Shown in pieces: positions 7,530-59,649 of a stretch of 64,000 bases of DNA (positions within the stretch are counted from its first letter, which is position 1; each line of letters starts with the position of its first letter). Source of the DNA: Hysterangium stoloniferum (lineage: Eukaryota > Basidiomycota > Agaricomycetes > Hysterangiales > Hysterangiaceae); contig WHVD01000033.1 of the NCBI GenBank assembly GCA_015178975.1, positions 434,001 to 498,000 on the forward strand, given 5' to 3'. The notes beneath the pieces were generated by a model that was not told the origin of the DNA, ran no database searches, and worked only from the letters and a program-made list of their open reading frames with translations. A program made the position numbers and the translations under genes.

Positions 7530-9359
7530 TCAGAGAACTAGAGGTGCGGTTAACTCCCCTGTAAGGAGGTTGAGCCCGTCATGCCTGTTCCTGGCCACCC
7601 ACAACAGAAATCCGATGATGCTAGCGTCAAAAATAATCTCACAGAGCTCCCCCTCTCCTGTTACTATGCCTAATTTTGTTAGAAACTCCCCACCCACTGC
7701 CATGATAAAATCAGAGTCGCGTACTGAAAGGGTCTTTACCAGCCTTGCGTCGGGTCGTGGTTTAAAATCGTCAGGCGGCGGTAACATTAGAGACCGAAAA
7801 CGATCGGATGCTCCTGAAGATAACCTTTCGATTGATGACGACACGGGATTTTCAAGGGGAGGGATTTTCACTGCGCAATGGTAAACGGCGTGGGCTTGAT
7901 CATATCTTGTTTTAAAAGTGACGGTCCCGCTCACGATTCCTTGCATAAGACCGACCAATAACGTTTCACGGCTAACCTCGGATTTTGAAGTGCTTGATGT
8001 TGGCGTCGGGGATGGGGATAAAGGCGGGGGAGAAGACTTGGGCTCTTGGGGAGACAATGGTTTTGGCTTTACTTCAGTCGGGAGAAGGGTATGGACTAGC
8101 GGTTCGAACTTTGATTTGTCCTGGAGAACGTAGATATCACCAGAACAAACATACGAACAAAGCATATTGAGCATGTTATCTTTTGATGAGAAGGTTATCG
8201 CTCCATTTTTTTTCACGTTCAATAGAATGACCTCATTAACAAAGTAGGTCTGTGATGGTGATAGTGTCGTGATTTTGAAAGTAAAAATGTCCTCTTGGGC
8301 TTGTGGGGTCGTTCTATATTTCGCCATAGCTATACCGCGTAAAGTAGAATCACTGTAGTCCGATTCAGTGAAATTGATGTACTGCGGCGCAATTCCCACG
8401 ATAGGAATGTCAGAAAGAGAGCTGTGGATCGCGACTTTGGGGAGGGGAAGCTTGGTCGAGACATTCCGGAGTACCAACGCTAGTCGCGGGCTAATAATAT
8501 ATAATCTGTGCACGGAAGGTGATCCATATAAAAGACCTTCCCACAAGCCAAAACCGTTATCTCCCAGAACAAATTCAGAGCCTTCGGGAGCCTCCCAGAT
8601 TCCCAGGAAATACGAATTGGCGACGTTTACATATTCAACAGCATGCCAATTCTCCAAAGTGGCACTCTTTGTGAGTTTCGCGATTTGACTGAGATCGCGG
8701 ACATTGTACTTCCCCTGAAGAGCTTCGCCTTCTGCAACGGCCATGTGATGTGGTGTGTCCAGGTGATAGCGGAGACCGTGTAGCCACACTTCTATATGGC
8801 TGTCTAAGCCTTTAGCTTCCTTGTATTTCTGTATCCAGTCGCGTAATGGTGCATTTTCTGGATTATCCTCGAAGTATGTGAGCGAACGTGCGGCCGATCG
8901 GTAATGCATCAAGAAGAGAAACTTCCGCAATGCTTCAAGGGACTTCCGTTTCATATGGAATTCTCCTTGCTTCAACGAAGCGTGAAGATCATTGATAATG
9001 TCTGCCGCATGGCTCTCTAGAGCAGAGAACTTTTCTTCGACATAGTTGACGTCTGCCACATTCTTAATATCCTGATAAAGGTTGACCTCTCCGTACACTT
9101 TCCCAATTGGTTTGCTTTCCAGCGTCCCTGTCGCTATATCATATACCAACACGGTTTCATTGAAAACGCCGGTCTTTCTAGACTTCCAATATGCTTTATT
9201 CTTCTCTTTTTTTGTTCTGAAAGAGAGCTGATCAGTTGGACCAATATGAAGGGTAATTGTCATTTACTTTACATGACCAGGATTCTCCTGGAATCGTCTC
9301 AGGATAAACCGTGGTATATAGTGTTGATATTGAATTTGCGATGGTCGTCGTGGGTCCAT
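7530..9359 (-). CDS. DUF4238 family protein
   Basis: Two exons (9359-9268 and 9216-7530; intron of 51 nt with GT..CAG) give 593 aa. The short first exon supplies the family's N-terminal signature QYQHYIPRFILRRF, so the true start is the ATG of MDPRRPSQIQ and not the internal methionine at 9263. Other family-like blocks are KRKSLEALRKFLFLMHYRS, EVWLHGLRYHLDTPHH, NVANSYFLGIWEAPEG, ISPRLALVLRN and the late VNEVILLN. The last 170 residues, after a Pro/Ser-rich linker (about residues 410-435), are not typical of the family as I know it. DUF4238 has no assigned activity; similar proteins occur in bacteria and in large fungal families. No signal peptide or membrane segment is evident. Confidence 0.82.
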
Positions 9360-10672: not shown

Positions 10673-13600
10673 ATGAACACTCCTCCTCCTGATAATCATA
10701 CTCTTTGGGATAAAGAGAAAGTTGTAGCTGCTGCTACATCTACCAGTCAATGTCGGAAAACGATCCTGTCTCTTCAAGGCGATACTGCTCGGAAGGCGCT
10801 TACTTGGCTTCAAGAGGTGGGAACGAGAAATTAGCCCCTGATTGCTTTTACAATTGCGCACTATGTAGGAACTCGACGCTGGTCGAAAATCTGATCGACA
10901 TATCATTATCAAAGTTATGACGCATCTCGCTGGGGAGTCCAACCAACTTCCAGCAAACATCTGGCTAAAAAACGTCGATTATAATCCTGAGCTCCCAGCC
11001 GACGGGTCATTAGACGCTGTCTATAGAGGATCGTGGAACACGTTAGACGTAGTTCTAAAGATGCAGCGTCATCAGAACACCACGCTGGTGGACAAGGTAT
11101 TGTGATATATTATTCTTCCACCTGTTCAAACCCACTTGGCATTTTCAAGAAATTTTGCAGAGAAGTACTACTATGGCGTCAACTAAGGCACGATAATGTT
11201 CTTCCTTTCCTGGGATTATTTCAGCCACCCGATAGGTCTGGTGTCGCAATAATTTCCCGGTGGAAACCTCGAGGCAATCTTATGGACTACATAAAGGACG
11301 TACGGAACCCCGATAGGTTCAAGCTGGTAGTATATCATGTTTACCTGTTCTTCAAAGAAATTTCATACCTTCCCATAGATGATGGGAGCGTCTGCTGGAT
11401 TGACTTACCTCCACGAGCACGAACCCGTAGCGATCCATGGAAATCTAAAGCCGGCAAGTGCACACCATTATATCATGCCTGTACCAAGTTAATGTTAGGT
11501 CATTCTTAGGAGAATGTCTTGGTCAATTACGACGGAAAAGCTTTACTAGCAGACTTTGGATCTTCCCAAGCACAACCGGAATTGTCAAACATACATTCTA
11601 GTACGGAGACCGGCGAGAAATACTGTTACACGGCTCCCGAGCTTATCGCGGATTCTGGGAAACCAACCACATTTAGCGATGTATGGGCCCTCGGAATGAT
11701 TATATACGTAGCATTTACGGGAAAACGGCCATATGCCGAACTGAACAAGGGACAGGCCGTTACAGCCATACAGCGAGGGCAGAAACCTCAACCGCCGACG
11801 TTTTTGGCCACACAAAGGGGTCTATCCAGCGAGTTGTGGAGCTATTTGGAAGAATTCTGTTGGGCGAAAGAACCTGGCGAACGGACGCTCGCGCGGAATT
11901 GCCGCGCAAGTTTGAAAGCCTTCGAAGAGCGCTGGCTTGAGAATGTGGATCTGACTTCACCTCGTGTATGTGTTATCCTTGTTTCTGGGATTTCTTAAAT
12001 AGTAAAGCGACTGGGCGAATCATCAGGAAGTGACCGAGGTCAGGACTGCGTTGACTGTTTATAAAAGCTCGCAATAATGCTTGGGGCTGCTCTTAGATCT
12101 TACAGGTTCCACTGACTTATATTCATCACACCGACACTTTGAAATCCTTGGAGGAACAGTTCGGAGTTACAATCGTGAAAGAAGGCACTGATGGATTGAA
12201 GGTTTGACCAAATTAGATACCTGCACCTTTGACCCATGGTTTTCATAGGTTATGGGCAAAGAGTACAACGTTGCTATGACACTGACCGAAATACGACGAG
12301 ATCCCCAGTTCTTGGTGCGCCCCGTACCATTGGCTTTGAAATTGCTTTTCCGTTTTTTTAATTGTTTATGCTGCCAGGTTAAATGCCCGATCACTGTTGT
12401 CGAACACCACACAATTCCTACTCGATTTCATAACCGACTATTATCTTCAACCATAATAGATGAAATTAGTGCAGAACTCTCAGTGACGATTAAGTTTCAA
12501 CCTAATACTGCAATCCTGGAAGGAACTCATGAGAATATCCAAGAGGCAGTTTCACGGATAGGCTCTGTATGTATCAATGTACCAAACCGCCCCAAGGGCC
12601 GTTTTATGCTCTAAACGTCTGACTGTTTCATGTAATTGACTAATATAGACCGTTGGGAAACTTAGGCATCGCAATAGTGGCTTGGACTCACACTTCAATC
12701 AGATATTTCGGGGATCGCAGCTGCGACAGGACATTTCACACTCGGCGAACAGTGCTGCTGATGTACGTTGATCTAAGAAGTTGAAAGCTGACCTAAGATA
12801 CGCTTCCTCCTAGTCTGTTAGGGCAAGTGTTCTGCGAAATGAAGTGCCTGACCCTCCTCCCCTCCCGGAGCCTGTACCTCCTAGGTAGTGCTTCACTTTT
12901 GATGGCGGTTGCCATGTGTTCCTCATTTGGCTGGCGTTTTCTTTGCAGATCTGATGAACCAGACCCGGAACGGCGGTCTCGTGCCTTTGATAAAAAGGCC
13001 ATTGTAATCCCAGAGAGCGTACCAAAGAAAAAATCACAGCTTCAGCTCAAACCTCCAGAAGCTGAAGTCGTATTATGTGGGATGCGCATACCCAATGATC
13101 TACATCCAGACCTGCTAAGAGAAGGAAGTGTCCAGCAATTAGAGGATAAAACGGGTTCTCGGATCTATTTCCCTCGACACATTCTACACAGCACCTTTGG
13201 CATTCCAGAAAACCAGACGGAGCTACGAACGGTTAAACGGGAAGATCTTGTATTTATACATGGAACTCGCGAAGTTTGCGAAACTTCACGGCGAGAATTG
13301 GAGGTATATATTATATATTCTGAGGAAAGCCGCCACGGTAATGTTGACGGGGTCTTCTGTCATCGATAGGCGATGGTCAAGAAATTGGATGCAAGTTTGC
13401 ACCAAATAGCCCGGTTTGGTGCAAAATACGTATGTAGAGTTTCATGTAACACACACCCCTCTTACCCATTTCTATTATCTGTGTAGCATTACGAAGTTCA
13501 TGGATTAGTTTATGAAGAACTACGGCGTATGGACATCCAAGTTGAAACCTCTTCTAATGTCTGGCCCCTTCAACCCGCCAGTCCACCAACGCCTCCGCTC

Positions 13601-14048
13601 CCACACTTGAAGAGCGACGAGTATGCATGGTCAGTCGTTCGAAGGTTCGACCGTAGCGACGACGAGGACTGCGCATGGCATCTTCGAGCCAAGTCGGTCG
13701 AAGAGCTAAAGGCGGGATATCGTATTTTATCCAAAGCTGTCCAGGCGGTGTCTGCCGCAAGCTACGTCGGGCGACTGTTTTTCCACAGAAGCCATGCATT
13801 TTCGCCTCCGTCGGAGATAAAGAGGCAGGTGCTTCAGCGGTTACAGAAGGACTTTAGTGTGAAGATCGTGCTCCCTCACGGGGACAACATCGTCAGGATT
13901 ATTGGTACATTGTGATACGATTCTCCGCGCTCGTGCTGTTTCTGACTAATTTTAACCAGGGTCGAAAAAGAGGGTGGAGGCAGCCAGAGGAGATGTTGTG
14001 AAATTTCTTGACACAAATTGGATGACCATGCTGGACATGACGCTGTAG
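10673..14048 (+). CDS. kinase/pseudokinase fused to KH-like RNA-binding repeats
   Basis: Spliced in frame, this gives a protein of about 850 aa. First half: a TKL-like kinase domain with the Gly-loop region SLDAVYRGSW, the Lys in DVVLKMQ, a Glu in KFCREVLLWRQLRHDNVLPF, the catalytic loop IHGNLKPENVLV (Asn where the base Asp normally stands), LADFGSS and YTAPEL. Exons 10673-10816, 10869-11096, 11150-11326, 11379-11453 and 11510-11965 are all phase 0. A strong 61 nt intron (GTATGT..CAG) then joins 12027-12056 and 12106-12201. The second half holds several KH-like folds without a GxxG loop, best seen at VQQLEDKTGSRIYF plus LVFIHGTREVCETSRREL, and at IKRQVLQRLQKDFSVKIVLP plus GSKKRVEAARGDVVKFL. 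A proline-rich linker lies near 12860-12890. The KH part resembles vigilin/Scp160 in style. Two adjacent genes remain possible, but I see no stop and no promoter at the joint. Confidence 0.68.
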
Positions 14049-14895
14049 GACTGTTAGAGAATTGTTTTAATGTTGTTGGACGTTTGTTGTAATGCCATCG
14101 ATGTATTATTAGTCGCGTACAAAGCACTCGACACTGACCACCGCTTGAGATTGCCGATTGTTCACACGGTGGGAATTTTTGTTCTATTTTGGCTCTTCAG
14201 AATTCTTTTGTTGTGGTCCGAGTCGATGGCGACGATGCAGAGAGCTGGACAAGTACACGTGCGGGGCACAGCTCGAGCTCGAGTCGTTTACACCGGAAAA
14301 AGCCCCGGATCCCAAATCTCAAAGGATCCTTGGTGGTGGAGGCTGGATCCTTGACCGATCTTGATTCGGTCAAGGATCTGACCGGTGATTCGCCGAGTTT
14401 ATATCACACTCAGCCTCCATCAAGGATCCTTTTGAGATTTTGGATCCGGGGTGGTATACGAACGTTCAACATTTTAGAAATAACCACATGTTTCATTGGG
14501 AGACGCTGATTTTCTCACTCCTTAAGGGACCGCGACCATCACGCGGCCTCCCACATTCGCTACCAGCCTTTTTCGGTGACTCGTGGCATTACTTTGAGGG
14601 AACGTGCTTGTCGGGAGGTGTCAGATTCTCCCACTGGCAGCAAGGAAATTTCTATTAAAATCAAACAATAATTCAGAGATACTGTGATGTATATTATTGA
14701 GTTAAATAAAATAGCAACCCACAATAATGATGCGAACTTACAACTATAATAAGAGACTTCTGCTTTCAGCAATTTGTAGTAGACGCCGGAAATTCCCGAA
14801 ATGGATGGACACCGGCAATTGCTTTGTGAGTGATACCAGTTACAATTTACCGGCTCCTTTCACATTTAATCGCCTTGACACTACCTGTTTAATAT
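14049..14895. other. intergenic with a fold-back element
   Basis: About 850 bp between the kinase-KH gene and the SET5-like gene. It holds the inverted repeat listed at 14283-14465 and, just before the next gene, an AATATATG stretch at the start codon. No gene is evident. Confidence 0.45.
14283..14465. repeat. fold-back (inverted repeat) element
   Basis: Outer arms of about 42 bp (14303-14344 and 14411-14451; CCCCGGATCC at the tip, with AAATCTCAAAGGATCC inside) enclose a second, perfect hairpin with 12 bp arms ATCCTTGACCGA and TCGGTCAAGGAT around a 7 nt loop (14347-14377). The outer arms extend loosely to about 14283 and 14465. This is the form of a small MITE or of a structured transcript precursor. 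I see no transposase and no clear target duplication. Confidence 0.6.
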
Positions 14896-19257: not shown

Positions 19258-21645
19258 ATGTCAACCTCGACCATAGGCGCGACAGAGCCCCCTGGGCCGA
19301 CAGGCATCCCTGCTCCGACGGTAAGCAGTTGTTGTCTCTAAGCACGTCGACATCATTAACGTGGCAGCCTCTGTGTGGTGTGTGCAGATTGAAGAACATT
19401 ATTCGTCGTGGTCGCTGTTCATCGTCTGCATACTGCTCATCATTTCGCTATGGACGTCGTATTATTTGCAAATCAAGCGCATTCGCGTTGTACACGAGAC
19501 TATTATTTCGATTTTTGCCGGTATGGCGGTTGGCCTTGTCGTGCGGCTTGCGCCGGGGACGCTTATCAGGGAGATGTTGGTGCGTGGACAGTGTCATCGC
19601 GCTGTCGCTATTCGTAGTAAACCTTTCCTCAGACCTTCAAACACACGCTTTTTTTCAACCTGCTTCTGCCGCCTATTATTTTGAACTCGGGCTACGAGCT
19701 GAAGCAGGAGAATTTCTTCCGCAACTTTGGCAGCATACTCACCTTCGCCTTCGTGGGCACATTTATCTCTGCTGTTGGTCTCGGCGTGCTTGTGTATATA
19801 TGGTCCTTCCTGGGGCTCGAATCACTCAAGCTATCCCTCCTTGAATGTCTTATTTTCGGCTCCACGCTCAGCGCGACAGATCCTGTCACCATCCTTGCCA
19901 TTTTTACTCAATACAAGGTTGACCCTAATCTCTACAGCGTTATTTTCGGCGAGTCGATCCTCAATGACGCCGTTAGTATTGTAATGTACGACACGCTCTC
20001 CCAGTTTCATGGAGAGGAGATTTTTGTCTCCTCGCTCTTCCGCGGTATTGGCATCTTCCTTCTATCATTTTCGACTTCTATGGCCCTAGGCGTGTTCTTC
20101 GGCCTACTCGTGTCCCTCACGCTCAAACATTCCCACCTATCCTTCTACCCCTCCATCGAATCCTGCCTTGTTGCTCTCACGGCGTATACTTCCTACTTCT
20201 TTTCCAACGGGCTTCAAATGTCCGGAATTGTCTCCCTCCTTTTCTGCGGGATCACATTAAAGCACTACGCCTACCACACCATGTCCCGCCGCACGCAGCG
20301 CACCACAAAATACATATTCAGCATGCTAGCCCAGCTCTCCGAAAATTTCATCTTTATCTACCTCGGCCTCTCGATCTTTACCACCCCGCCGCGGGAGAAC
20401 AACCTCACGACATACATCAAGCCGCTTTTCATCGGTATCACGGTCGTCAGTGTTGTGTTTACGCGTTATGCGTCCGTATTCCCTCTCGCGGAGGCCATCA
20501 ACTTCTTCCACCGCCACGTCCGCGGACAGCGCCAGGACGAGCTGCCGCACTCATACCAAATGATGCTTTTCTGGGCTGGACTGCGCGGAGCAGTCGGCGT
20601 CGCGCTCGCAGCGGGCTTTCAAGGCCCCAACGCGGAAATACTCCGCACGACCGTCCTCGTCGTCGTCATCGCGACCGTCATCCTCTTCGGCGGCACGACG
20701 GCACGCATGCTCGAGGTGCTTGGTGTCCGCACGGGCGTGGAAGACGACGAGATGAGCGAGAGCGACGAGGGGGAGGCGGAGCGTGCGTTCTTCGGCCGTC
20801 CGTCGGCGGCGGCATCGGCAGTGCGCAGACGCTCGCTCCGCCATTCGCGCGAGTGGGGGACCCAGACGTACGGGTACACGGACGACCCGCACCCGGCGGC
20901 GCCCCATGCCACCCCTGCCGGGCCCATATTCTCCGCCCCGTCCTCGTCCGCGTCAGACTCGGACATTGGGGAGGTCCTCCCGATGTCGTCGCCGGTGCAC
21001 ACGCGGGCGGGCTCGCAGTCGCCGTTCCCCCCGCCGCAGCACCACGGGCGGACCAGCAACGAGCACGAGCACGAGCACAGCGCCGCAGACTCCCGGTGGT
21101 TCCAGGCGCTTGACGAGCGGTATTTCCTTCCGCTGTTCTCGAACGCGACTGCGAGCCGGACGTTCCATGCGCGGCGAAGGCGCGGAGATATAGAAGAGGA
21201 AGATTTGGAAGAGGGGGATGATCTCGGTGCGGGAGCTGGCGTCGAGCGGCGGCTGGGGGAGGACGGCGGCCTGGGACATGGCAATGGATACGGACAGGAA
21301 CGGCGGTGGGAGAGTCCGGGGGCGGCGGAGGGGAGTGGTGGTTCGCACGCGCAAGGGGGATCATCCGCTGCTGCCCGGAACTTCTCTGGGACCCTGGGTG
21401 AATTTTTTGACCATTTGCGGTGGGGGCGGGATCGGGACAGGGGCGAGCGGGATCGGGAGCTGGATGAGGCGCTTCCGCTTAATGACCAAGGGGGGAGTGG
21501 TCCTAATTCGCCGCCTCATCAGCAGCCGGAACGGGCGTCGTCGTTGTCGATAGGACGGGGCATGGCGAGTCCGTCGTTACGGGGGCTGGGGAGTCCGGGG
21601 TTGAGGGGGACGGGGGTTGGTAGTGGGAGTGCGGGGCGGGGGTGA
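19258..21645 (+). CDS. NHX-type Na+(K+)/H+ exchanger
   Basis: A CPA1-family antiporter of endosomes/vacuole (yeast Nhx1 type), exchanging luminal H+ for cytosolic Na+ or K+. Three exons (19258-19320, 19388-19579, 19633-21645) give about 755 aa. The membrane domain has about 11-12 hydrophobic segments. Family motifs are FFNLLLPPIILNSGY, LSATDPVTILAIF, the ion-binding VIFGESILNDAVSIV, and FWAGLRGAVGVALA. After the last membrane segment a cytosolic tail of about 290 residues is Ser/Gly/Glu-rich and low in complexity. That tail is unusually GC-rich (about 20.75-21.65 kb), which creates long but meaningless open frames on the opposite strand. The gene looks intact. Confidence 0.9.
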
Positions 21646-27253: not shown

Positions 27254-28906
27254 CTCCCTGGATCCGAATTCCTTAGGAGAGAGGTGGTACCTTTTAAGAT
27301 GGTCTCGGTTGATCACTGGATGCAATTGATTTTCTGAGGGAATGCAAAGTCGAAAGACTTGAGAATTGATCTTCTCCAAGACCTCAAATGGCCCTAACGG
27401 TCTTTGTATAAGTTTCCTTCTGGGCCCTTTGGCTTCGACGAGTTTGAGGGAATGGGGATTGATCAGAACATAATCTCCCTCCGAGATATCTTCCACCAAT
27501 CTCCTTCTCTTATTGTAGCTGCAGGCTTGCGTTTCTTGTGCTCACGCAATCGAATCCCGTGCCACCTGCTGATGGTTTTCCAATTCTAAGATCCATTGGT
27601 CAGCTAGAGGGCTATCTGATAATTCTCTGGGAACCACGGGGTCATCCCCTCCTAGACAGTGAGACATTCCTCTTGGTAAGTATCCCATCAGCAAAAAGGC
27701 TGGCATGTAGCTTGTTGAACTTTGAACTGTTGAATTGTAGGTATGCGCCACCACTTGAGTCCATTTAGACCATTCCTCCTTTGAAGAAGGGCAGTACGCT
27801 CTGAGCATTTGCTCAATGATAGCATTGGCATTTTCCATTTGACCGTCAGTTTGAGGATGGTGGGACAAGGATACCGCAAGGGCACTTCCGTATACCTTGC
27901 AGACCTCTCTCCAGAATCTACAGGTCCACCTCTTGTCTCGATCACAAATTATCCTCGAAGGTAGGCCGAAAGGAGTGGCCACTTTATTCATGAAGATTTG
28001 TGCGAATCCTTCTGTGGATAGATCTGAAGTTGTGGGCTCACAAATTAAAAAATGCATGAGTTTATCCACAGTGACGAAGATGGCTGAGTAACCGCTCTCT
28101 GCAGAAGGAGGCAATCCCATAATCAGGTCCATCAAGACAACCTCAAATGGCCTTAAGGGTACATCTGTGGGTCGAAGAGCTCCTTGTCGAGCAGAATGAT
28201 CGACTTTAGTTTTCTGGCATATGTCACAGCTGCGAGCGTACACCACGCTGTCATGCAACATCCTCAGCCAGAAGAAATGGTCCTTCATCAGCTGAAAGAG
28301 TCTGTGACCGCCTGCGTGAGCTCCTTCAAAGGGGTTATCATGTATCAACTTGAGTATGGTTGACGTCATGCTGCTAGGGATGCAGATTCGACTTTTCCAG
28401 TCTGAATCTCGAAAGAACAATAGCTTATTCTTGCCGATGAAATAATGCGAAGGGGTAGCTACCATGTTCGGAGAAATAGGATCGGCAGTGTAATGATTTC
28501 TGAAAGCAGGATCCTTCTGGTATCCATCACGAAGTTCCTTAGCATAATTTTCGTCAATTTCTATAAGCAATTGGGGATTTGAGAGAGTAAAATTTGCCTC
28601 ACCGAGTTCATCATTCCTGGGGAGGTTGTGTAAATCCCATTTCATTTGGGGGACCTCTTCCATCATTCTGACTGGTTCAACTAACTCATGGTGAGTGAGA
28701 AAGATGGCCTTTTCCACTGGTTTGTTCTCCCATAACATCTTGTTGTCAGTCCAGTTGTAAGAATCTGCTACGATTGGTAAAAGGTCGTGTCTCACGGGGC
28801 TAGCACAATCAGGCACTCGGGGAAGTCTAGACAGTGGGTCAACATTGCTGTGTATCTGTCCTGCTCTATGTAAGATTTCCAGACTGGGGTATGCAGCGTA
28901 TACCAC
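27254..28906 (-). mobile_element. integrase of the gypsy element
   Basis: The minus strand shows the zinc-binding HHCC region (HAGGHRLFQLMKDHFFW and CDICQKTK), the catalytic core (VVLMDLIMGLPPS, IICDRDKRWT, HPQTDGQMENAN) and the C-terminal DYVLINPHSLKLVEAKGPRR barrel region. The end of RNase H (HRAGQIHSNVDPLSRLPR) precedes it. Fossil. Confidence 0.85.
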
Positions 28907-29245
28907 CCCCCATGTGGCCAGTTGACGATTGGTATTCTCGTACGATCTGGCCCATTGTAACGCCGCATGGTCAGTGATCAGGAGGATATGTTCTCCCTCG
29001 ATAAAGGGCTGGAAATGGACTAGTCCCTCTTTAGCAGCTAATGCCTCGCACTCTGTGGCGGAGTAATTACACTCTGATTTCTTGAGCGTACGGCTCCAAA
29101 GGCGATGACGTGCTTGACCGTGACACTGGTGTCATCAAAATCTGAGGCCCAGGAATCCGTCCAAGTAAATTCCAGCTCCTTGGTTTTATAACGAGTGATG
29201 AAAATGGGCACGTCTTGTGATTGATCAAAGGCTGCTCTTGCTTGG
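28907..29245 (-). mobile_element. RNase H portion of the gypsy element
   Basis: Degenerate minus-strand sequence corresponding to the RNase H domain and the ITDHAALQWARSYEN type motif, ending at the solo LTR insertion point. Fossil. Confidence 0.55.
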
Positions 29246-42408: not shown

Positions 42409-43272
42409 TTAATGTTGTGGAAGATTTGGATATTTTTGATGAAATTCTTCGATAAGGTTGAAAGCCTGTTCGAGATCTTGAGATCCTAACCAGGAAGTTT
42501 CTTCGTCTGTTCCTTCGTAACCTAACCAGGAAGTTTCTTCGTCTGTTCCTTCGTAACCTAACCAAGCAACTAAATATTGTAATGAATCTTTATATCTTTT
42601 ATTGAATTTTGAATCCAAAATTTCTCAAATTTCATATTCGGGTTCTTCTTCAACATAAATTGGTGGAGGAGGAGGTTGTTTTCGATTTGGGAAAGTATTG
42701 GGATAAAACAGTTCTAACATTGAGACGTGAAAGATGGGATGAATTCCTTTGAGATGATTGGGAAGTTTTAATGTATATGAATGAGATCCTGGTCGAGCAA
42801 TGATTTCGAATGGGTCTAGTAATTTTTCCGATAATTTTTTCGATGGTCGAGTTGTTCGAATGAAGTTGGATCGTACAAAGACTTGAGAATGGATTGGAAA
42901 GTCAAATGATTCTTTTCGATGTATGTCGGAATATTTTTGATAACGTTTTTGCGCTTTCTGGATATTTGATTTGAGATGTTTATGTAGAGCTTCGAGATCT
43001 GTCATATAATCACGAGCTACAGCGGAAGCTAGATCTTTTTCAGGGTGAATTTCTAACAATGGATGATAACCTTTATTAGCACAAAAGGGTGTTTCACCAG
43101 TTGTTTCGGAAGGTGCATTGTTATAAGCGAATTTGGCTAAAGGAAGTAATTCGGCCCAATTGTCCTGTTGATAATTGGAATATATTCGTAAATATTGTTC
43201 AAGGGTTTGATTGACTTGTTCAGTTTGTCCATCGCCTTCAGGATGGTATCCTGATGTGAAATGTAATTTCAT
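42409..43272 (-). mobile_element. integrase and chromodomain-like end of gypsy element C
   Basis: The minus strand reads the end of the catalytic core (FTSGYHPEGDGQTEQVNQTL), the C-terminal integrase domain (HSQVFVRSNFIRTTRPSKKL) and FHVSMLELFYPN, then LVAWLGYEGTDEETSWLG, a chromodomain-like fragment in which a 36 bp unit is duplicated (42493-42565). Fossil. Confidence 0.75.
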
Positions 43273-44160
43273 GTTGAGTGCTGTTCCGAGAGATCGAAAG
43301 AAATGCGATACGAATTTGGATCCTCGATTGGAGGTTACATGACTTGGGACTCCATGTTTTGAAAAGACATGTAATATGAAAAGTCAAGCGAGTTCGGGAG
43401 CGTTGATCGTAGTATAAGTTGGAATGAATATTGCTTGTTTTGAAAGTCGATTGACAATTACAAGTATTGAGTCGTAACCATTCGAGGTCGGTAATTGTTC
43501 AATAAAATCCATCGAGATTGAATGCCATGGTCGAAGAGGGATCGGAAGTTGCTTAAGTAATCCAACAGGTCGATGTCATGGAGTTTTCGATTTTGTACAC
43601 GTTGTCGTTCATTCTCTCACATCCAATAGTAAGAATCGAGTCGAAGGGCAGCCGTTTGAAGTCGATCCAAAAGATCAGGAATTAAAGGGAGTGGATATCA
43701 GTTTTTTCGTGTGATTTTATTAAGTCCTCAATAGTTGACGCAAAGTTGTAGGCTTCCATCTTTTTTCTTAATGAATAAATTCAGTGCACCGGCGGGAGAT
43801 TGCAACGATTGAATAAACTTCTTCAAAAGTCGAAAGTTGAAAAGTCGAAATCTTCAAAAAAGTCGAAAGCTTCAACAATCAAAATATTTAAAAGTCAGAA
43901 ATCTTCCAAAATCAGTAACCTTCGAAAGTCGGAAAAAAGAAGTCAGAAGATAATCGTGTGGTAGAAGAATTGAAAAGTCTTGGATTTTGATCTTGGATTT
44001 TGATTTCTTGTAAATCTTCTTGGAAATAATGATTTGACTTGCCCAGATTGAAGCATGCATCTCTTTTTCCAATAAAGTCATGATTGACATTTGAATCAGA
44101 TTCGGAATTCTTGAAGATTGTTGAAGTAGGTTTGAAAAATGTAATGGCCAGATCGCTAGT
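43273..44160 (-). mobile_element. degraded pol sequence of gypsy element C
   Basis: Traces of the upstream part of integrase and of RT (for example at 43280-43560 and 43720-43800) with no long open frame, then short AT-rich repeats. Fossil. Confidence 0.45.
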
Positions 44161-46307: not shown

Positions 46308-46481
46308 GTTTTGTTCACGTTCACCTTTTGTTCACGTTCACCTTTTGTTCACGTTCACCTTTTGTTCACGTTCACCTTTTGTTCACGTTCACCTTTTGTT
46401 CACGTTCACCTTTTGTTCACGTTCACCTTTTGTTCACGTTCACCTTTTGTTCACGTTCACCTTTTGTTCACGTTCACCTTT
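46308..46481 (+). repeat. 17 bp minisatellite
   Basis: About ten near-identical head-to-tail copies of TTTTGTTCACGTTCACC. It lies inside the copia gag remnant. The unit is not a multiple of 3. Confidence 0.9.
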
Positions 46482-46599
46482 AGTTTTGTTGCACATGATC
46501 ACAGCCTATATAGCCCAGGTAGTTTTCCATCTTCACCACATGTCAATAAGGCATCTTAAGATTCTGTGTATTAACTGATGGAAATGGGTCAGTATATAG

Positions 46600-47045
46600 G
46601 GAGCTCACATAAATGTGATTTCTGAGATTCTTAGGATAGATACATAGGATGTAATATGCAGATTATAGCAGTATTCACACAGAGGTGATTCTTAAGATTC
46701 TGGATGTATATACACAAACCATGATATACAGACTATATGGGTACCCACACTGAGATGATTCTTAAGATTCCTGGGGTAAATACATCCTACATGCTATGCA
46801 GAAAATAGATGTACTCACACAGAAGTGATTCTTGAGATTTTTAGGGTAGATACATACACAGCAAGTGATATACAGATTATAAGATAATTCACACAAAGGT
46901 AATTCTTGAGATTCTTAATGTACATACACAGAATATGATATACAGATTATATAGGTGTCTACACTGAGGTGATTCTCAAGATTCCTAGGGTGAATCAAAT
47001 ACAGCTGATCTAGAGATATTTAAGCAAATACGTAGAGTAAAGCCT
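46600..47045 (+). repeat. tandem repeat, period about 70 bp
   Basis: Six diverged units, each with GTGATTCTTRAGATTC, a TAGATACATAC-like block and ATATACAGATTATA. The last unit is part of the inverted structure: its reverse complement recurs at 50530-50640. Confidence 0.7.
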
Positions 47046-47049
47046 TATG

Positions 47050-47945
47050 GGAATTAGGGAGATTGGGAGGATTGGGAGGATTGGGAGGATTAGGGGAATT
47101 AGGGAGATTGGGGAGATTGGGTGGATTAGGGGGATTGGGTGGATTGGGGATTGGGAGGATTGGGGGGATTGGGGGGATTGGGGGGATTGGGGGGATTGGG
47201 GGATTGGGGGGATTGGGGGGATTGGGGGATTAGGGGATTGGGGGGATTAGGGGGATTAGGGAGATTGGGGAGATTGGGTGGATTAGGGGGATTGGGTGGA
47301 TTGGGGATTGGGAGGATTGGGGGGATTGGGGGGATTGGGGGGATTGGGGGGATTGGGGGGATTGGGGGATTGGGGGGATTGGGGGGATTAGGGGGATTGG
47401 GGGATTAGGGGGATTAGGGGATTAGGGGGATTAGGGGGATTAGGGGGATTAGGGGGATTGGGGGAATTGGGAGGATTAGGGATTAGGGGGATTAGGGGAT
47501 TGGGAGGATTGGGGAGATTGGGGAGATTAGGAGGATTGGGGGGATTGGAGGGATTGGGAGGATTGGGGGATTGGAGGGATTGGGAGGATTGGGGGGATTA
47601 GGGGGATTGGGAGGATTGGGGAGATTGGGGGGATTAGGAGGATTGGGGGATTGGGGGATTGGGGGGATTAGGGGATTGAGGGGATTGGGGGATTGGGGGG
47701 ATTAGGGGAATTAGGGGAATTGGGGAGATTAGGAGGATTAGGGGGATTGGGATGATTGGGGTGATTGGGGCCATTAGGGAGATTAGAGGGATTAGGGGGA
47801 TTAGGGGATTGGGGAGATTAAGGAGATTGGGGAGATTGGGGAGATTGGGGGAATTGGGGGATTAGGGGGATTGGGAGGATTGGGGGATTGGGGGATTGGA
47901 GGGATTGGGGGGATTAGGGGGATTAGAGAGATTGGAGGAATTGGA
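47050..47945 (+). repeat. G-rich array (GGGGGATT/GGGGATTA)
   Basis: About 900 bp of 8-9 nt units: runs of three to six G separated by ATT or ATTA. The plus strand has dense G-quadruplex potential. Open frames through it (GGLGGLGG...) are by-products. Confidence 0.95.
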
Positions 47946-48185
47946 GAGAGTTGAGGAATAATTCAACTCAATCCTAAACCTAATTCCTCTGTCCAACTCC
48001 TTGATATATTTCCCTCCACCTTTCTCTCAATACTCCCATCCCAATGTCCTCAATCACTCTTCCAATACCTTCAATATCTCTTCTAATGCCTTCCAAACCA
48101 TTCAATCAACTTCCAATACCTTAATACCTCTTCTAATGCCTTCTATCTCTCTCTGCCAGTACCTCCAACCTCCTTCCCAATGTCT

Positions 48186-48656
48186 AACCTCCCTCTTAAT
48201 ACTCCCAACCTCCCTCTTAATACTCCCAACCTCCCTCTTAATACTCCCAACCTCCCTCTTAATACTCCCAACCTCCCTCTTAATACTCCCAACCTCCCTC
48301 TTAATACTCCCAACCTCCCTCTTAATACTCCCAACCTCCCTCTTAATACTCCCAACCTCCCTCTTAATACTCCCAACCTCCCTCTTAATACTCCCAACCT
48401 CCCTCTTAATACTCCCAACCTCCCTCTTAATACTCCCAACCTCCCTCTTAATACTCCCAACCTCCCTCTTAATACTCCCAACCTCCCTCTTAATACTCCC
48501 AACCTCCCTCTTAATACTCCCAACCTCCCTCTTAATACTCCCAACCTCCCTCTTAATACTCCCAACCTCCCTCTTAATACTCCCAACCTCCCTCTTAATA
48601 CTCCCAACCTCCCTCTTAATACTCCCAACCTCCCTCTTAATACTCCCAACCTCCCT
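48186..48656 (+). repeat. 21 bp minisatellite
   Basis: About 22 near-identical head-to-tail copies of CCTCCCTCTTAATACTCCCAA plus one base. Because 21 is a multiple of 3, every frame without a stop in one unit stays open throughout, so the long open frames on both strands are by-products. Confidence 0.95.
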
Positions 48657-48659
48657 CCC

Positions 48660-50049
48660 AACACCCTCAATCTCCTCCCAAAGACTTCTAATTTCCTCCC
48701 AATACTTCCATATCAATAATGCTGTAATGTGTAATCATGTCTATCCACATTTCATCAATTGTATAATTCTATCTGTTCCATTATGCTCATAGTATCCCAA
48801 TGTATACTCAACATTCTTAGTGACATCTGTTCTATTCCTCTGTATTGTCCTCCTTAGTATCAAATGCATTCTACATCTAGAAGTTTCACTAAAAGTAGTC
48901 AATATTTGAATACCCAGAATGTGTAAGGTAGTGACACACCATACACTGTGAGGTAGTAATAGGCTCTCATCATTCTTCTCTTTCCATTATTCTCCAAATA
49001 TATATGTACTTTACATGTGGTTTGCATAAAGTAGTGGTTTATTCCCCCTTATCACTCAATCTATTAGCTGTTTTTATTTGCAGCAGATATTAGTCCTACA
49101 CTATTCAACTGTTGCACTGTTGAAACATGGCAAAGCACAACCAAACTAAAAATTGCTACTAATGTGATTCAAATAACAACTGCATAACAGCTAGAATAAT
49201 TGCTATCTGAGGGATGAATGTGCAGAAGGTTCTGTTATAAACAATATCATTTTTGTGATGATCTGTATCATAATCTTATAATGGTTATCACCATTCTCTT
49301 TAGTTGTGTAGAATATATGTAAACTATTGTAGTAAGATAAATTCCTATTACTATTAGAATGATATTTCCTTCTCTTGATATATATTTCATTGGTTAATAG
49401 AGCACTTTCTGGTATACTCCATTACAATAATTCAGAATTCCAGTCATGGTCTTTATAGTCTTTGTGGCAGTAGGATAATATATAAAAAGAGTACAAGGCA
49501 AACCTTGTTTCCAGTGGAATAACATTTCTTCCTTACTTGTATGACATGTTCATTTATTTAGAACTGTTTCAATGGTGTAGTAGTTCTACAGCTAGACCAG
49601 TTGAACAGTGTAGAACTAATATCTGCAGGATATGCAAATGGCTAATAGATTGAGTACTGAGAGAGAAAAAACCACAGCTTTTGTGCAGCCACATGTGAGC
49701 TTGTTGTGAACTGAGATTTAAATGTACCTGAGAGAGTGGTGGAGTTGGAGTGTCCCTGAGAATAATAAGAAAACCCTTGATCATGTATCACATCATTTAT
49801 CAACCTTCCTTTATTCCACATCTTACCACCACTTAATCTTTACTTCAATTGTTTTTTTTTTTCCTATCATTACCCCCTTTTAATCTTTCATATGTACCTC
49901 AGTCAATTTTCCCTATCATGTGGACTAAGGTACATTATTCACAACTTAGTCTATTTGTTACATTAGCATACTAATTCTTAATTGGTAGTAATGCTATTTG
50001 TTATAGAGAAAAATAATGAGACCCTATTTGAAAGTCCCTACAAATCTCA
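48660..50049. other. spacer of the inverted structure
   Basis: 1.4 kb of AT-rich, CpG-poor sequence without recognised gene, transposase or repeat. Confidence 0.45.
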
Positions 50050-50311
50050 GAGAGAATAAACAGGGGGTATTGGGAGAGAGGTTAGGAGTATTGGGAGAGA
50101 CATTGGAGGTATTGGCAGGAGAATTGGAGGTATATGGAGAGAGAGATGGAAGGCATTAGAAGAGATATTGGAGGTATTGGGAGAGTGATTGAGGACATTG
50201 GGATGGGAGTATTGGGATGGGAGTATTGGGAGGGAGATGGAGGGAAATATATCAAGAAGTTGGACAGAGGGATTAAGTTTAGGTTTGAGTTGAATTATTC
50301 CTCAACTCTCT

Positions 50312-50530
50312 CCAATTCCTCCAATCTCTCTGATCCTCCCAATCCCCCAAATCTCCCCAATCTCCCCAATCCTCCCAATCCTCCCAATCCCCCCCAATCC
50401 CCCCAATCCCCCAATCCCCCCAATCCCCCAATCCCCCCAATCCTCCCAATCCCCTCAATCCCCTCAATCCCCTCAATCCCCTCAATCCCCTCAATCCCCT
50501 CAATCTTCCCAATCTCCCCAACCCTCCAAA
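50312..50530 (+). repeat. C-rich array, inner
   Basis: About 220 bp of CCCCCAAT/CCTCCCAAT/CCCCTCAAT units, the inverse of the G-rich array at 47050-47945. Confidence 0.9.
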
Positions 50531-50635
50531 TTCTCATAAGACTTTACTCTATGTATTTGCTTAAATATCTCCAGATAAACTGTATTTGATTCACCTCAGG
50601 AATCATGAGAATCACCTCAGTGTAGACACCCCTAA

Positions 50636-51160
50636 TTCTCCCAATCCCCCCAATCCTCCCAATTCCTCCAATCCTCCCAATTCCCCAATCCTCCCAATCC
50701 CCCCAATCCCCCCAATCCCCCAATCCCCCCAATCCCCCCAATCCCCCCAATCCCCCAATCCCCCAATCCCCCAATCCCCCAATCCCCCAATCCCCCCAAT
50801 CCCCCAATCCCCCCAATCCCCCAATCCCCAATCCCCCAATCCCCCAATCCTCCCAATCCCCCAATCCTCCCAATCCTCCAATCCTCCCAATCCTCCCAAT
50901 CCTCCCAATCCTCCCAATCCTCCCAATCCTCCCAATCCTCCCAATCCTCCCAATCCTCCCAATCCTCCCAATCCTCCCAATCCCCCTAATCCCCCTAATC
51001 CTCCCAATCCTCCCAATCCCCCTAAATCCTCCTAATCCTCCTAATCCTTCTAATCCTCCTAATCCTTCTAATCCTTCTAATCCCCCAATCCCCAAATCCC
51101 CCAATCCCCCTAATCCCCCTAATCTCCCTAATCTCCCTAATCTCCCTAATCCCTCTAATC
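50636..51160 (+). repeat. C-rich array, outer
   Basis: About 525 bp of the same C-rich units (CCCCCAAT, CCTCCCAAT, CCTAATCT toward the right end). It ends exactly at the TGTTAAG start of a family B LTR fragment. Confidence 0.9.
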
Positions 51161-52911: not shown

Positions 52912-53754
52912 TCATAAGTTATAATACAACAACGGTTTAGACTCCTCATATGCTGCTTCCGACGCAGACGGACCCTTCATGCTGTCGACTAACTTCCGAA
53001 ATTCGCCGCGTGTGCTTGCACAGGGACGCCGCAGAACATGAAGCTGCCAATGAAGGGGCAGCCAGCCCGAATTTTCCCAATCTATAATTCCGCTCAATCG
53101 ACCGTCTTTAACGAGAATGTTGTGGCTTCGAAGGTCGGCGTGCACATATACAATGGTGTCGGACATAATGGTCTGGGAAGCGTTGGGCTGTAGCTCCTTG
53201 AACTCCTCCACAGAATCGAATAGGTGACGAGACAGATGGACGAAGCACTCCAGGATATTGTCAAAAGGACCCTCGCGGTCCTCAAAGAAGAAAACCGGAC
53301 TTGGCATACCATGGCCGCTTGCACTAAGCATGACCTTGCCTGCGTCTTGCTCGGGCTGAGGGAGAGTCCAGAGACTGCGGAGGACCGTGAAGACGTCTTC
53401 AACGATGAGGCGCATGTCTTTATCTGACGTCGTGTCAAGTTTATCAATAAGCAGATCTCCGTCAATCCTCGTCATCACAGTGTATGTATTTCCGCCCACA
53501 ACAAAGCTATCAACGATGCGAGGGATTGGCAAACGAAGACCGCAACTGTTGAGGAATCGCAAAGCATCAGCTTCGGTGCCGATGGTTCCTATCGAGCATT
53601 TCAACACCAGAGGAATGCCAAATTTAAAATAGCGAATGTTGTGAAAACCTGTGGCTGTGGATAGGAAACGGTATACGGAGAGTCGGATGTGGTTCAAGGG
53701 CAGTAGTAATAAAGATCGAAGACGCTGTAACATTACGATGCTGTTCGGGTTCAA
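52912..53754 (-). CDS. APH-fold phosphotransferase (aminoglycoside phosphotransferase family)
   Basis: A single-exon gene of 280 aa. The protein-kinase-like APH fold is shown by the catalytic loop VHADLRSHNILV (Asp as base, Asn as metal ligand) and the metal-binding GIIDWENSGW, plus the upstream hinge region YTVMTRIDGDLL. In fungi these proteins are numerous and mostly of unknown small-molecule substrate; antibiotic resistance should not be assumed. The N-terminal glycine-loop part is short compared with family members, but the frame is intact. A CTCACGTG E-box lies 13 bp upstream of the ATG (53767-53774). Confidence 0.82.
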   Translation of the reverse strand: MNPNSIVMLQRLRSLLLLPLNHIRLSVYRFLSTATGFHNIRYFKFGIPLVLKCSIGTIGTEADALRFLNSCGLRLPIPRIVDSFVVGGNTYTVMTRIDGDLLIDKLDTTSDKDMRLIVEDVFTVLRSLWTLPQPEQDAGKVMLSASGHGMPSPVFFFEDREGPFDNILECFVHLSRHLFDSVEEFKELQPNASQTIMSDTIVYVHADLRSHNILVKDGRLSGIIDWENSGWLPLHWQLHVLRRPCASTRGEFRKLVDSMKGPSASEAAYEESKPLLYYNL

Positions 53755-55245
53755 ACTCTCGGCTTCCTCACGTGCAATTCTCGGCTCAATCCGTAAAGGC
53801 GCGCAAATGGTGCATCACGCCTAGTCACTGGCCGCTACTTTTGTACAATAGAAATAGTCGATTCACCTTTATTCCTTTGGTAGAAATGTTCCTTTTAGCA
53901 ATGCAGACTCATCCTCACAGATTTTGGATCGAAATTAGCGGAGATATAAATTTTTGTGACACGTCAAACAATCGGTTATAAACTCTCTTTCAGAATGAAT
54001 TCCACTCCAGCGTCGACTATTACGGACTAGACAGTGAAGAGCTGAGTGGTTGGGTAGAGGAAGAGCGTTAGCTCTCTGCGTGTGCGTGGGAAGACTCGCC
54101 GCTCGGGAGGGCGGGTAATCATAATGCATTAACAGCTCTCGTTACTGTATAATCCGCTAAATATGGTAAATATATCACATCGAAATATTGATACTTGATT
54201 ACTGCTGCAGTCTAAAGAAAGGGCTAGGGTGGGTGGGTAAATTAAATGTGTAGATATGTAGGAATAAGGATCAGAAGTCAGTGATGAGAAAAACAGGAAG
54301 GACTGAGGGTCGACAGCGACGTCGTACGAGAACACAAGGCGTGCGAATCCTACATATGCTCAGCTGGACGTTGAGTGCCGAACTACTCTCAGCACGCCAG
54401 GGATCGTGCGGCACTCGACACTAAACATGGTTTGGTAGGCCAGATAATTATGGTTATGTTTCTGAATCAAATAAGGTTGAATTATGCAAATTATTTTTAA
54501 AAGTCACAGATACCAGAGAAGTAATATAGAATTTAACTGCTACTAATAATATATTAAATTCAACTAATACTAATAATATAGAATTTAATTGAGACTTCCG
54601 TAATTAGGATTCGGCAAGATTTGTTGAATTGTATCTACTAATATTGATATTAAATGCTACTGTTCGTAATTAGGATCCTGAAAAATGTTTGGTGTGTATC
54701 ATCTCTTCGCTCATCCGCATCCTTTCGCTTGAGTTGACGGAGTTCAGTCAACAAAGATGCTAGATGCGATAAGAACTAAACTCTATTAAACTCTCTGTAC
54801 TAATCTCGTCAATAACCTAATTAGCCGCCCACTCAAATATATGAAGATTTTTCATTAAAATGTTTAACATTGAAGAAGTGTGACCTTGTCTTATTTCCTT
54901 ATTAGAAAATCATTGTTCTTGTTTTGTAGTACAAAGACATTATAGTATAAATATTCCTCTCCCTTGTAGTTAGAAACCAGTTTGAATATTAGTTTAATTT
55001 GGTCCTTTTCTGTCTCTTTGTCTCTCATATCTTACTTGATAACCTGCACTCCTCAGCCTCCAGTTATCCCCTATGTCTGTTTGTCTCAGATTTCCCTTCA
55101 GACCCACCCCAGACATATCCTCAGAATCTGAGAATATACCAAGTACCTGCTAGTCTGAAATTAGGACTTGACTTTCAGACCACTCTTAAGGATATCATCT
55201 ATGTAAACAGTGCAATTTACAACTGGATGAGGTGTGCTTGCACAA
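53755..55245. other. AT-rich intergenic sequence
   Basis: 1.5 kb without a recognised gene. Around 54500-54600 a motif with CTAATAATATA-type repeats occurs several times, and 54364-54418 holds a small hairpin (GTTGAGTGCCG/CGGCACTCGAC). Confidence 0.4.
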
Positions 55246-58090: not shown

Positions 58091-58760
58091 ATGGCATCCA
58101 GTGATACTTACAAATGTAGTGTCATATTGGGAGAAAATAATTATGAGGATTGGAGACATGGTGTAATTGGTCTTTTGTGTATGGAGAACTGTCTCTCTAT
58201 TGCCACTGGCAAAGAAAAACAACCTAGTGATACTAGTTTACAGTCTGCCTGGTTGGAACGCTCCAATAAAGCAGCTGGTATCATATGGCACTCTCTTGGA
58301 GCGCACCTATGTTGACATTGATGATGGTCCTGATCATATGTAGTCTAAAATTGAAAAGGCACATAATAAACAACTCCCTGCACTTCGTTTTAGTGTCTAC
58401 AATGACCTCTTTAATATTCGGAAGGAACCTGATGAATCTCTGACTTCATTAATGAGTTGTGTTGACAAGGTTTGTGCATGTGTCCAGAACTTATGTCCAA
58501 AGGTGTACACTCTTGCCATACTGGATGATGAGCTTGCTGCTCTCACTTTACTTTGTTCTCTGCCTGAATCTGACTCTGTGTGGACTTCATCTTTAATGAT
58601 GAATACTGCTACATATCACATTCTCTGATGTCAAAACTCACTTTGTATCACAAGAGAGTCTGCAGTCTGCCAGAAGTTTAGAGACGGTGAACAAGATTGT
58701 GTTAAAGACTTCCAACACTTCTGGTAAAGTTCCTTGCACATTCTGCAATGGTTCCAGCCA
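58091..58760 (+). mobile_element. gag region of the copia element
   Basis: Begins at 58091 (MASSDTYKCSVILGENNYED), a typical copia Gag start, and leads to the zinc knuckle CTFCNGSSHTQDNC near 58738-58780. Fossil. Confidence 0.75.
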
Positions 58761-59649
58761 CACCCAAGACAATTGTTACAAGTATGCAAATGCACAGAAA
58801 CAGGCAAAGGCCAGAGTTGAACAGAAGAAAAAGGAGTATAAAGAAAGAAAGGCTGCTAAGGCTGACAAAGCTGATGCATCTGACAAGGTATCAGAGGAAA
58901 AGAAACCAGAGAGTGCTGGAAATGCAAGTGTTTCTATCCCTGACTCTACCAATCCATCTTGTGCTCTCCTTGTCAATGCTAGTTCTGACTGGACTGCTGA
59001 CACAGGTGCTTCTTTGCACATGACTCCCCATCATCATTGGTTTTCAAGTTATACACCATTTCAAATACCTATCCAAGTTGCAAATGGACAAATAGTTATG
59101 TCTGCAGGGATAGGAGCAGTGTGGTTTAAGCCTAAAGGGAATGCAAATGTAATAATAGAGTTTGAAAGGGTTCTCCATGTTCCCCATCTCACAAGGAACC
59201 TTCTTTCCATCTTATATTTGACAAAGAAAAAGAATTTCCATGTCTCTATCTTTCGTTTGCCCATGTCTTTCTATTTGAGAAAAGTCTTGCATTTCACTGC
59301 TACAGTCAATGAATATAACCAGGCCTATTTGGATGGAATGATGGTACCTATGATGGATTATGTTGGTCTTGTTACAACCTGTCCCTTGGACTCCACACTT
59401 TGGCATCGTCACTTTAATCACCTCAATCATGCTGATATCCAGAAGCTCCTCAAAGGTGATTTGGTTGGTGGGATAAATATTGACTCTCACACGTCTCCTG
59501 ATTCTATTTGTGAACCTTGTTTGGCTGGAAAACAGAACAGAGTAATTAATAAAATGGCAACAACATGCTATACTAAACCACTTGCACTCATTCACAGTGA
59601 TGTTCATGGTCCCTTGCCTACACAAACTGTGGAAGGGTTTCACTACTAG
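58761..59649 (+). mobile_element. protease and pre-integrase region of the copia element
   Basis: SDWTADTGASLHMTPHH is the protease active site; LWHRHFNHLNHADIQKLLKG and CEPCLAGKQNR form the zinc-binding head of integrase. Fossil. Confidence 0.85.

Follow-up and report, generated by a model that had tools for sequence, protein, structure and literature searches.

A TKL-like kinase gene with an HGN catalytic loop and a vigilin-related KH tail in Hysterangium stoloniferum

Introduction

Kinases that are combined with an RNA-related module include PKR, GCN2 and KIS/UHMK1, which use other RNA-binding folds and have no KH array of the vigilin type, and pseudokinases of the HGN type, with Asn for the catalytic Asp, are found in JAK JH2 and among plant receptor-like kinases. 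For vigilin itself we know of no kinase domain. The protein is conserved from yeast to vertebrates and has been described as binding both mRNA and the ribosome (PMC10011833, PMC9117268), with about 14 KH domains in vigilin/Scp160 (PMC10011833); in the human protein many of the KH domains are reported to bind mRNA and contacts are made with the 40S subunit (PMC9117268). As to fungal kinases, many of the TKL type are reported for Laccaria bicolor (Kosti et al. 2010, PMC2838846), in an article whose main text does not contain the words 'KH domain', and FslK is described as a fungi-specific kinase lineage close to the tyrosine kinases (PMC3937382).

The gene that concerns us here lies in a stretch of 64,000 nucleotides of the Hysterangium stoloniferum genome (the window) and has a kinase domain of the same type as the fungal TKL kinases, followed in frame by a KH tail. 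It resembles vigilin/Scp160 (HDLBP; at C301 in this genome) in the order of the C-terminal KH units, in an insertion within unit v and in a unit vi that has no GxxG, and some vigilin introns lie at the same places as introns of the fusion tails. Vigilin, however, is a long KH array with GxxG motifs, whereas the fusion loci correspond to its C-terminal part only, to which the window gene adds an N-terminal kinase; with this kinase and no more than seven unit positions it is not a vigilin in the sense of about 14 KH domains and no kinase. PKR, GCN2 and KIS/UHMK1 share with it the pairing of a kinase with an RNA-related module but not the vigilin-type array, and JAK JH2 and the plant receptor-like kinases share its Asn but have unrelated accessory domains. 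FslK is likewise fungal and near the TK/TKL groups, and no KH part is mentioned for it in the text available to us (PMC3937382).

An earlier note on this DNA knew of no described family with this domain order, and we too found no kinase-KH or kinase-vigilin family in open-access papers. We regard the kinase-vigilin fusion as a real new accessory-domain variant of a known kinase type, present at three loci of the source genome. Our preferred reading, to which we assign a probability of roughly 0.55, is that this genome contains a small set of genes that combine a fungal TKL kinase with the C-terminal half of vigilin/Scp160, and that the window gene belongs to the set in eroded form. The set would then illustrate how the expanded TKL kinases of fungi can gain a new accessory part.

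Results and Discussion

The gene occupies positions 10673-14048 of the forward strand, from the first ATG of its ORF to the end of the stop codon, and its 15 exons, listed in Table 1, join into a single open frame of 855 codons. The 14 introns are 47-82 nt long, 13 of them GT-AG and one GC-AG. Both of the junctions that the earlier note had proposed, 11965/12027 and 12056/12106, are used in this model and the gene coordinates given there are also right, but the tail comprises 495 residues and not about 430; the start of exon 3 has been corrected as well. If an intron is retained, the frame runs into a stop for 12 of the 14 and is shifted for intron 3. Retention of intron 8 (12315-12377, 63 nt) causes neither, so that its splicing is not imposed by the frame.

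Table 1. Features of the kinase-KH gene (window positions; aa, residues of the spliced protein).
Feature	Position	Strand	Counterpart or remark
Exon 1: start codon and pre-kinase leader, aa 1-48	10673..10816	+	Matching exon ends in L051 and L050
Exon 2: kinase N-lobe, degenerate Gly loop PADGSLDAVYRG, VVLK lysine, aa 49-124	10869..11096	+	
Exon 3: helix C including Glu KFCREVLLWRQL, aa 125-183	11150..11326	+	
Exon 4, 75 nt: catalytic loop IHGNLKP	11379..11453	+	
GC-AG intron, donor gcaagt	11454..11509	+	gtgagc in L050 and gtgagt in L051 at the same place
Exon 5: EN, DFG (LADFGSS), APE (YTAPELI), kinase C-lobe, aa 209-360	11510..11965	+	
Kinase/tail junction intron, 61 nt, phase 0	11966..12026	+	56-nt phase-0 intron ends the kinase in L051
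Exons 6-9 with introns: tail units i and ii, aa 361-487	12027..12566	+	KH-like by position
Exons 10-11 with intron: short proline-rich stretch, aa 488-548	12649..12884	+	KH units iii and iv here in relatives
Exon 12: KH unit v with vigilin-type insertion FPRHILHSTFGIPENQTEL, aa 549-667	12949..13303	+	
Exons 13-14 with intron: KH unit vi and most of unit vii, aa 668-826	13370..13904	+	
Exon 15: rest of KH unit vii and stop codon, aa 827-855	13960..14048	+	

The kinase domain is recognized by PK_Tyr_Ser-Thr (Pfam) over residues 94-341 (E = 3.2e-31, 109 bits, cut-off 23.1), and its best solved relatives are plant CTR1 and then B-Raf, in keeping with the TKL-like assignment made previously. The proposed exchange of Asn for the catalytic Asp is present in the spliced translation (IHGNLKPEN), from which the VVLK lysine, the REVLLW glutamate, DFG and APE can all be read. 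The gene thus lacks the Asp in HRD/HGD by which an active kinase is recognized, and the label pseudokinase likely fits the window copy, as judged from its residues. Catalytic loops were read in 43 loci, a sample made up of the best-ranked results of two kinase searches and five refetched places rather than of the whole kinome. Five of these loci are the window gene itself; among the other 38, several of which overlap, 37 have readable loops, each with at least one Asp reading. At one of them, L039 on C105, a YGN loop (YGNLRP) occurs beside an HGD loop, and Asn at the base position is therefore not unique to the window gene; L049 also shows YGY.

Evidence that the tail is composed of KH units comes from the spliced protein, in which KH_1 (Pfam) gives E = 3.5e-10 (39.9 bits, cut-off 21.5) over two stretches, the best being residues 801-838. 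When pieces are examined singly, unit vii scores 23.1 bits against the same cut-off of 21.5 and unit v 16.9, which is under it, and KH_1 matches are absent from the other four tail pieces so tested. None of the 17 hits of an exon-by-exon KH_1 search of the genome is the window gene; the spliced protein is thus required for detection of the KH domains. Searching the 111-Mb source genome with the tail retrieved the tail itself (9 matches) and a single distant place, C301 (25% identity, E = 1.4e-8), and did not retrieve the two relatives described below, L050 and L051. C301 is the vigilin/Scp160 of this genome: KH_Vigilin is over its cut-off in an N-terminal piece, which makes C301 the sole locus over that cut-off among the matches listed, and two overlapping C-terminal pieces contain 3 and 5 KH_1 stretches. 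In a two-sequence blastp comparison the window tail matches the C-terminal half of this vigilin with E = 2.7e-18, and a profile built from the tails of L051, L050 and vigilin gives 98.2% for window residues 593-843, the best of five shuffles giving 0.4%. The insertion in unit v reads FPRHILHSTFGIPENQTEL in the window gene and FPGSRSYHHVGEPENASDL in vigilin. Both the KH nature of the tail and the kinship with vigilin to which the earlier note had pointed are borne out, and homology of residues ~593-843 to the three KH units at the end of vigilin/Scp160 can be considered secure at the level of sequence.

The remainder of the tail is less well placed. Units i and ii (residues 361-487) taken by themselves have no significant sequence match, and residues 361-548 on their own are matched neither by a Pfam KH model over cut-off nor by the profile of the L051, L050 and vigilin tails, hhalign giving 0.5% for residues 361-487 and 0.4% for 361-548, with shuffles of 361-487 at 0.1-0.3%. 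Two single-exon AlphaFold2 models computed without an alignment are of low confidence, with mean pLDDT values of 52.8 and 49.1. The KH-like segments proposed before stand by sequence for the last three units, the earlier ones being assigned only by position and, in some alignments, by introns; that residues 361-548 are without a significant match counts against our preferred reading. A sequence search of the PDB returned one chance match for the window tail (E = 3.8) and, for the vigilin pieces, KH entries including IGF2BP, Nova and vigilin. An SLS1 identity was rejected (KH_SLS1_1, 22.4 bits, below the cut-off of 24.1), and a viral collection scanned with tail alignment A1 yielded 43 pattern matches and no relatives.

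Inspection by eye shows GxxG in 6 of the 7 vigilin units of the corresponding stretch, once in L051 (GEKG) and, as had been stated for this gene, in no unit of the window tail, including units i and ii, and units iii-iv of its at most seven unit positions are reduced. This bears directly on the proposal of an RNA-binding pseudokinase. Were that proposal right, RNA would still be bound by the KH tail, and the HGN domain would work as a switch of the allosteric or ATP-sensing kind. The kinase half of the proposal agrees with an HGN loop in which Lys, Glu, DFG and APE are retained, and a vigilin-derived tail would suit the RNA half: in human vigilin the five KH domains nearest the C terminus are reported to bind RNA, more weakly than the whole protein (PMC9117268), one of the seven vigilin units compared is likewise without GxxG, and in FUBP1 a single glycine change in GxxG was judged insufficient to account for altered binding (PMC7417555). 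Against it stand the absence of GxxG from every window unit, the reduced units iii-iv and a report on FUBP1 in which four KH domains, once mutated to GDDG, no longer shifted single-stranded DNA (PMC7417555). The lack of GxxG weakens the RNA-binding part of the label; going by the residues of the units, RNA binding by the window tail is doubtful, and we hold the switch proposal as a whole to be a tentative one that is probably wrong.

That the order of kinase and tail is no peculiarity of one gene is indicated by two further loci, L050 (C257:730160-733577) and L051 (C257:734869-738219), which were found where kinase and KH_1 hits adjoin. They are neighbours, lie on the same contig and strand as the window gene, 282 and 287 kb from it, and bear out the in-frame fusion that had been claimed. 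L051 has an open core of 918 aa, the first exons not included, with a kinase (PK_Tyr_Ser-Thr, E = 9.5e-44) that reads HGDLK, DFG and APE and a tail with KH_1 at E = 8.4e-17. The kinase of L050 reads HGDIK and DLG and is separated from the tail by an in-frame TAA (L050:2014-2016, C257:731513-731515), both parts being otherwise open; its tail extends over 541 residues, the 475-residue main part of which matches KH_1 with E = 8e-12. The kinases of all three loci share the leader exon and several intron positions. The end of exon 1 reads THLQK before and IL after the junction in L051, and DNIHR and FL in L050, and the counterpart of exon 4 is again 75 nt in both (HGDIKG in L050, HGDLKG in L051). 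Since both relatives keep HGD, a dead kinase is not the defining trait of the family, and since one of them keeps GxxG as well, the HGN loop and the missing GxxG motifs look like later losses and not like the founding design; the window gene lacks what its relatives have and retains an intact reading frame.

At the six other TKL places inspected in this genome (C516, C45, C453, C12, C515 and C67) tblastn with the tails found no KH tail, nor did it in the flanks of the pair on C257 (720000-729600 and 739400-749000). One weak tail hit at C12 (E = 0.069, internal stops) was taken as chance. At L057/L058 (G000:C67:124000-140999) several copies of a TKL kinase (HGDIKG), some of which contain stops, have ORFs between them that were recognized by eye as calcineurin-like phosphatases.

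Intron positions were compared in twelve alignments of the tails, made from protein sequence only (six sets, each in two modes). Intron E lies where unit v ends and intron F close to the end of unit vii. Each of them keeps its column and phase in 8/8 alignments, namely all those with at least two of the fusion tails, and neither has a counterpart in vigilin. With introns placed at random in three genes, two three-way matches did not arise in 400000 trials. The window gene and L051 share further introns, A and B, in one of the four alignments that hold both, making four matches (0/400000 random trials), and two matches are found in the remaining three (287/400000). Vigilin and L051, held together by six alignments, share intron C in all of them and A in four; random trials gave two such matches in 178 and one in 13766 of 400000. 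A phase-2 intron of vigilin also lies near D, in a splice form picked after the likeness was seen. The simplest reading is that genomic DNA of vigilin was duplicated onto a TKL kinase and that the fusion was later duplicated.

The match of four introns varies with the alignment used, and the window tail is closer to vigilin than it is to the tails of L050 and L051. We have therefore also considered that a vigilin tail was gained separately, once by the window gene and once by the L050/L051 pair. In two-sequence blastp the window tail, so close to vigilin (see above), gives 1.7e-7 with L051 and 1.7e-5 with L050, the values being 6.5e-28 for L051-L050, 1.3e-15 for L051-vigilin and 3.2e-8 for L050-vigilin, and it is 19-23% identical to its relatives. 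A rough kinase tree, assembled from stitched BLAST pieces (20 rows and 200 columns, after 4 of 24 rows with at most 130 filled columns had been dropped), likewise leaves the three kinases ungrouped: that of L050 sits with the C67 kinases, and that of the window gene beside C517 on a long branch (0.951), a placement that we do not trust, and nothing that we say about the number of fusions depends on the tree. The closeness of the window tail to vigilin, the alignment-dependent match of four introns, the ungrouped kinases, the grouping of L050 with kinases that have no KH tail and its TAA all count against our preferred reading. Introns E and F, on the other hand, are absent from vigilin and common to the three tails in every joint alignment, and all three loci lie on one contig and strand, so that separate fusions appear rather unlikely to us.

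A decaying gene without function would account for the loss of the catalytic Asp and of GxxG, for the single GC donor and the short units iii-iv, and one relative does contain a stop. Yet the 855 codons run without an internal stop and splice sites are usable at 14/14 introns; in the 495 codons of the tail there are no internal stops, against 24 and 29 in the other two forward frames. Unconstrained drift of a tail to 19-23% identity would be expected to have left stops, and we consider a pseudogene improbable. That the intron model has mis-joined two adjacent genes, one for a kinase and one for a KH protein, is very improbable, given that L051 has the same order, orientation and phase-0 intron ending the kinase with a frame that is open throughout and that the first Met of the window tail comes at residue 404, within the first unit, even though L050 has its TAA between the parts and retention of the junction intron would end the kinase after 10 further residues.

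Under our preferred reading of an eroded kinase-vigilin gene, the vigilin-derived tail of the ancestral fusion would have held the kinase near mRNA, ribosomes or the partners of vigilin, and the tethered kinase would have directed phosphorylation at those sites. L051 could, from its motifs, be an active kinase of such a tethered sort. The window protein, which has Asn in place of the catalytic base and is devoid of GxxG, is most likely non-catalytic and may provide a scaffold or compete with its HGD relative, its KH units acting perhaps as protein-interaction modules rather than as RNA clamps. It is conceivable, if speculative, that the two form a pair in which the HGD-type L051 phosphorylates mRNA- or ribosome-associated targets linked to translation and the window pseudokinase fusion regulates or competes with it; were this true, the pair would be a fungus-made counterpart of the RNA-directed kinases. 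A kinase on the C-terminal half of vigilin would provide direct access to signalling at mRNAs under translation. Related copies within a single genome, some with and some without their catalytic and RNA-contact residues, make a natural comparison for the origin of pseudokinases.

Elsewhere in the window, recognizable genes include a DUF4238 protein (7533-9263, minus strand, 5.8e-22), a Na/H exchanger (19621-21642, plus strand, 1e-64) and an APH-type phosphotransferase (52915-53814, minus strand, 1.4e-15). Pieces of retrotransposons lie at 27545-29131 and 42628-43383 on the minus strand and at 58603-59646 on the plus strand, with domains of RNase H, integrase zinc-binding and, under cut-off, integrase core; of Tf2-type SH3; and of Pol_BBD and gag_pre-integrs. 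Tandem arrays are found within 46309-51153, comprising about 102 copies of the 9-nt unit GGGGATTGG (47049-47944), 22.5 copies of a 21-nt unit (48186-48657) and about 93 copies of a 9-nt unit (50333-51153). Just 3' of the kinase-KH gene, at 14303-14451, are nested inverted repeats with arms of 21, 19 and 13 nt that are 95, 89 and 100% complementary, possibly a small fold-back element.
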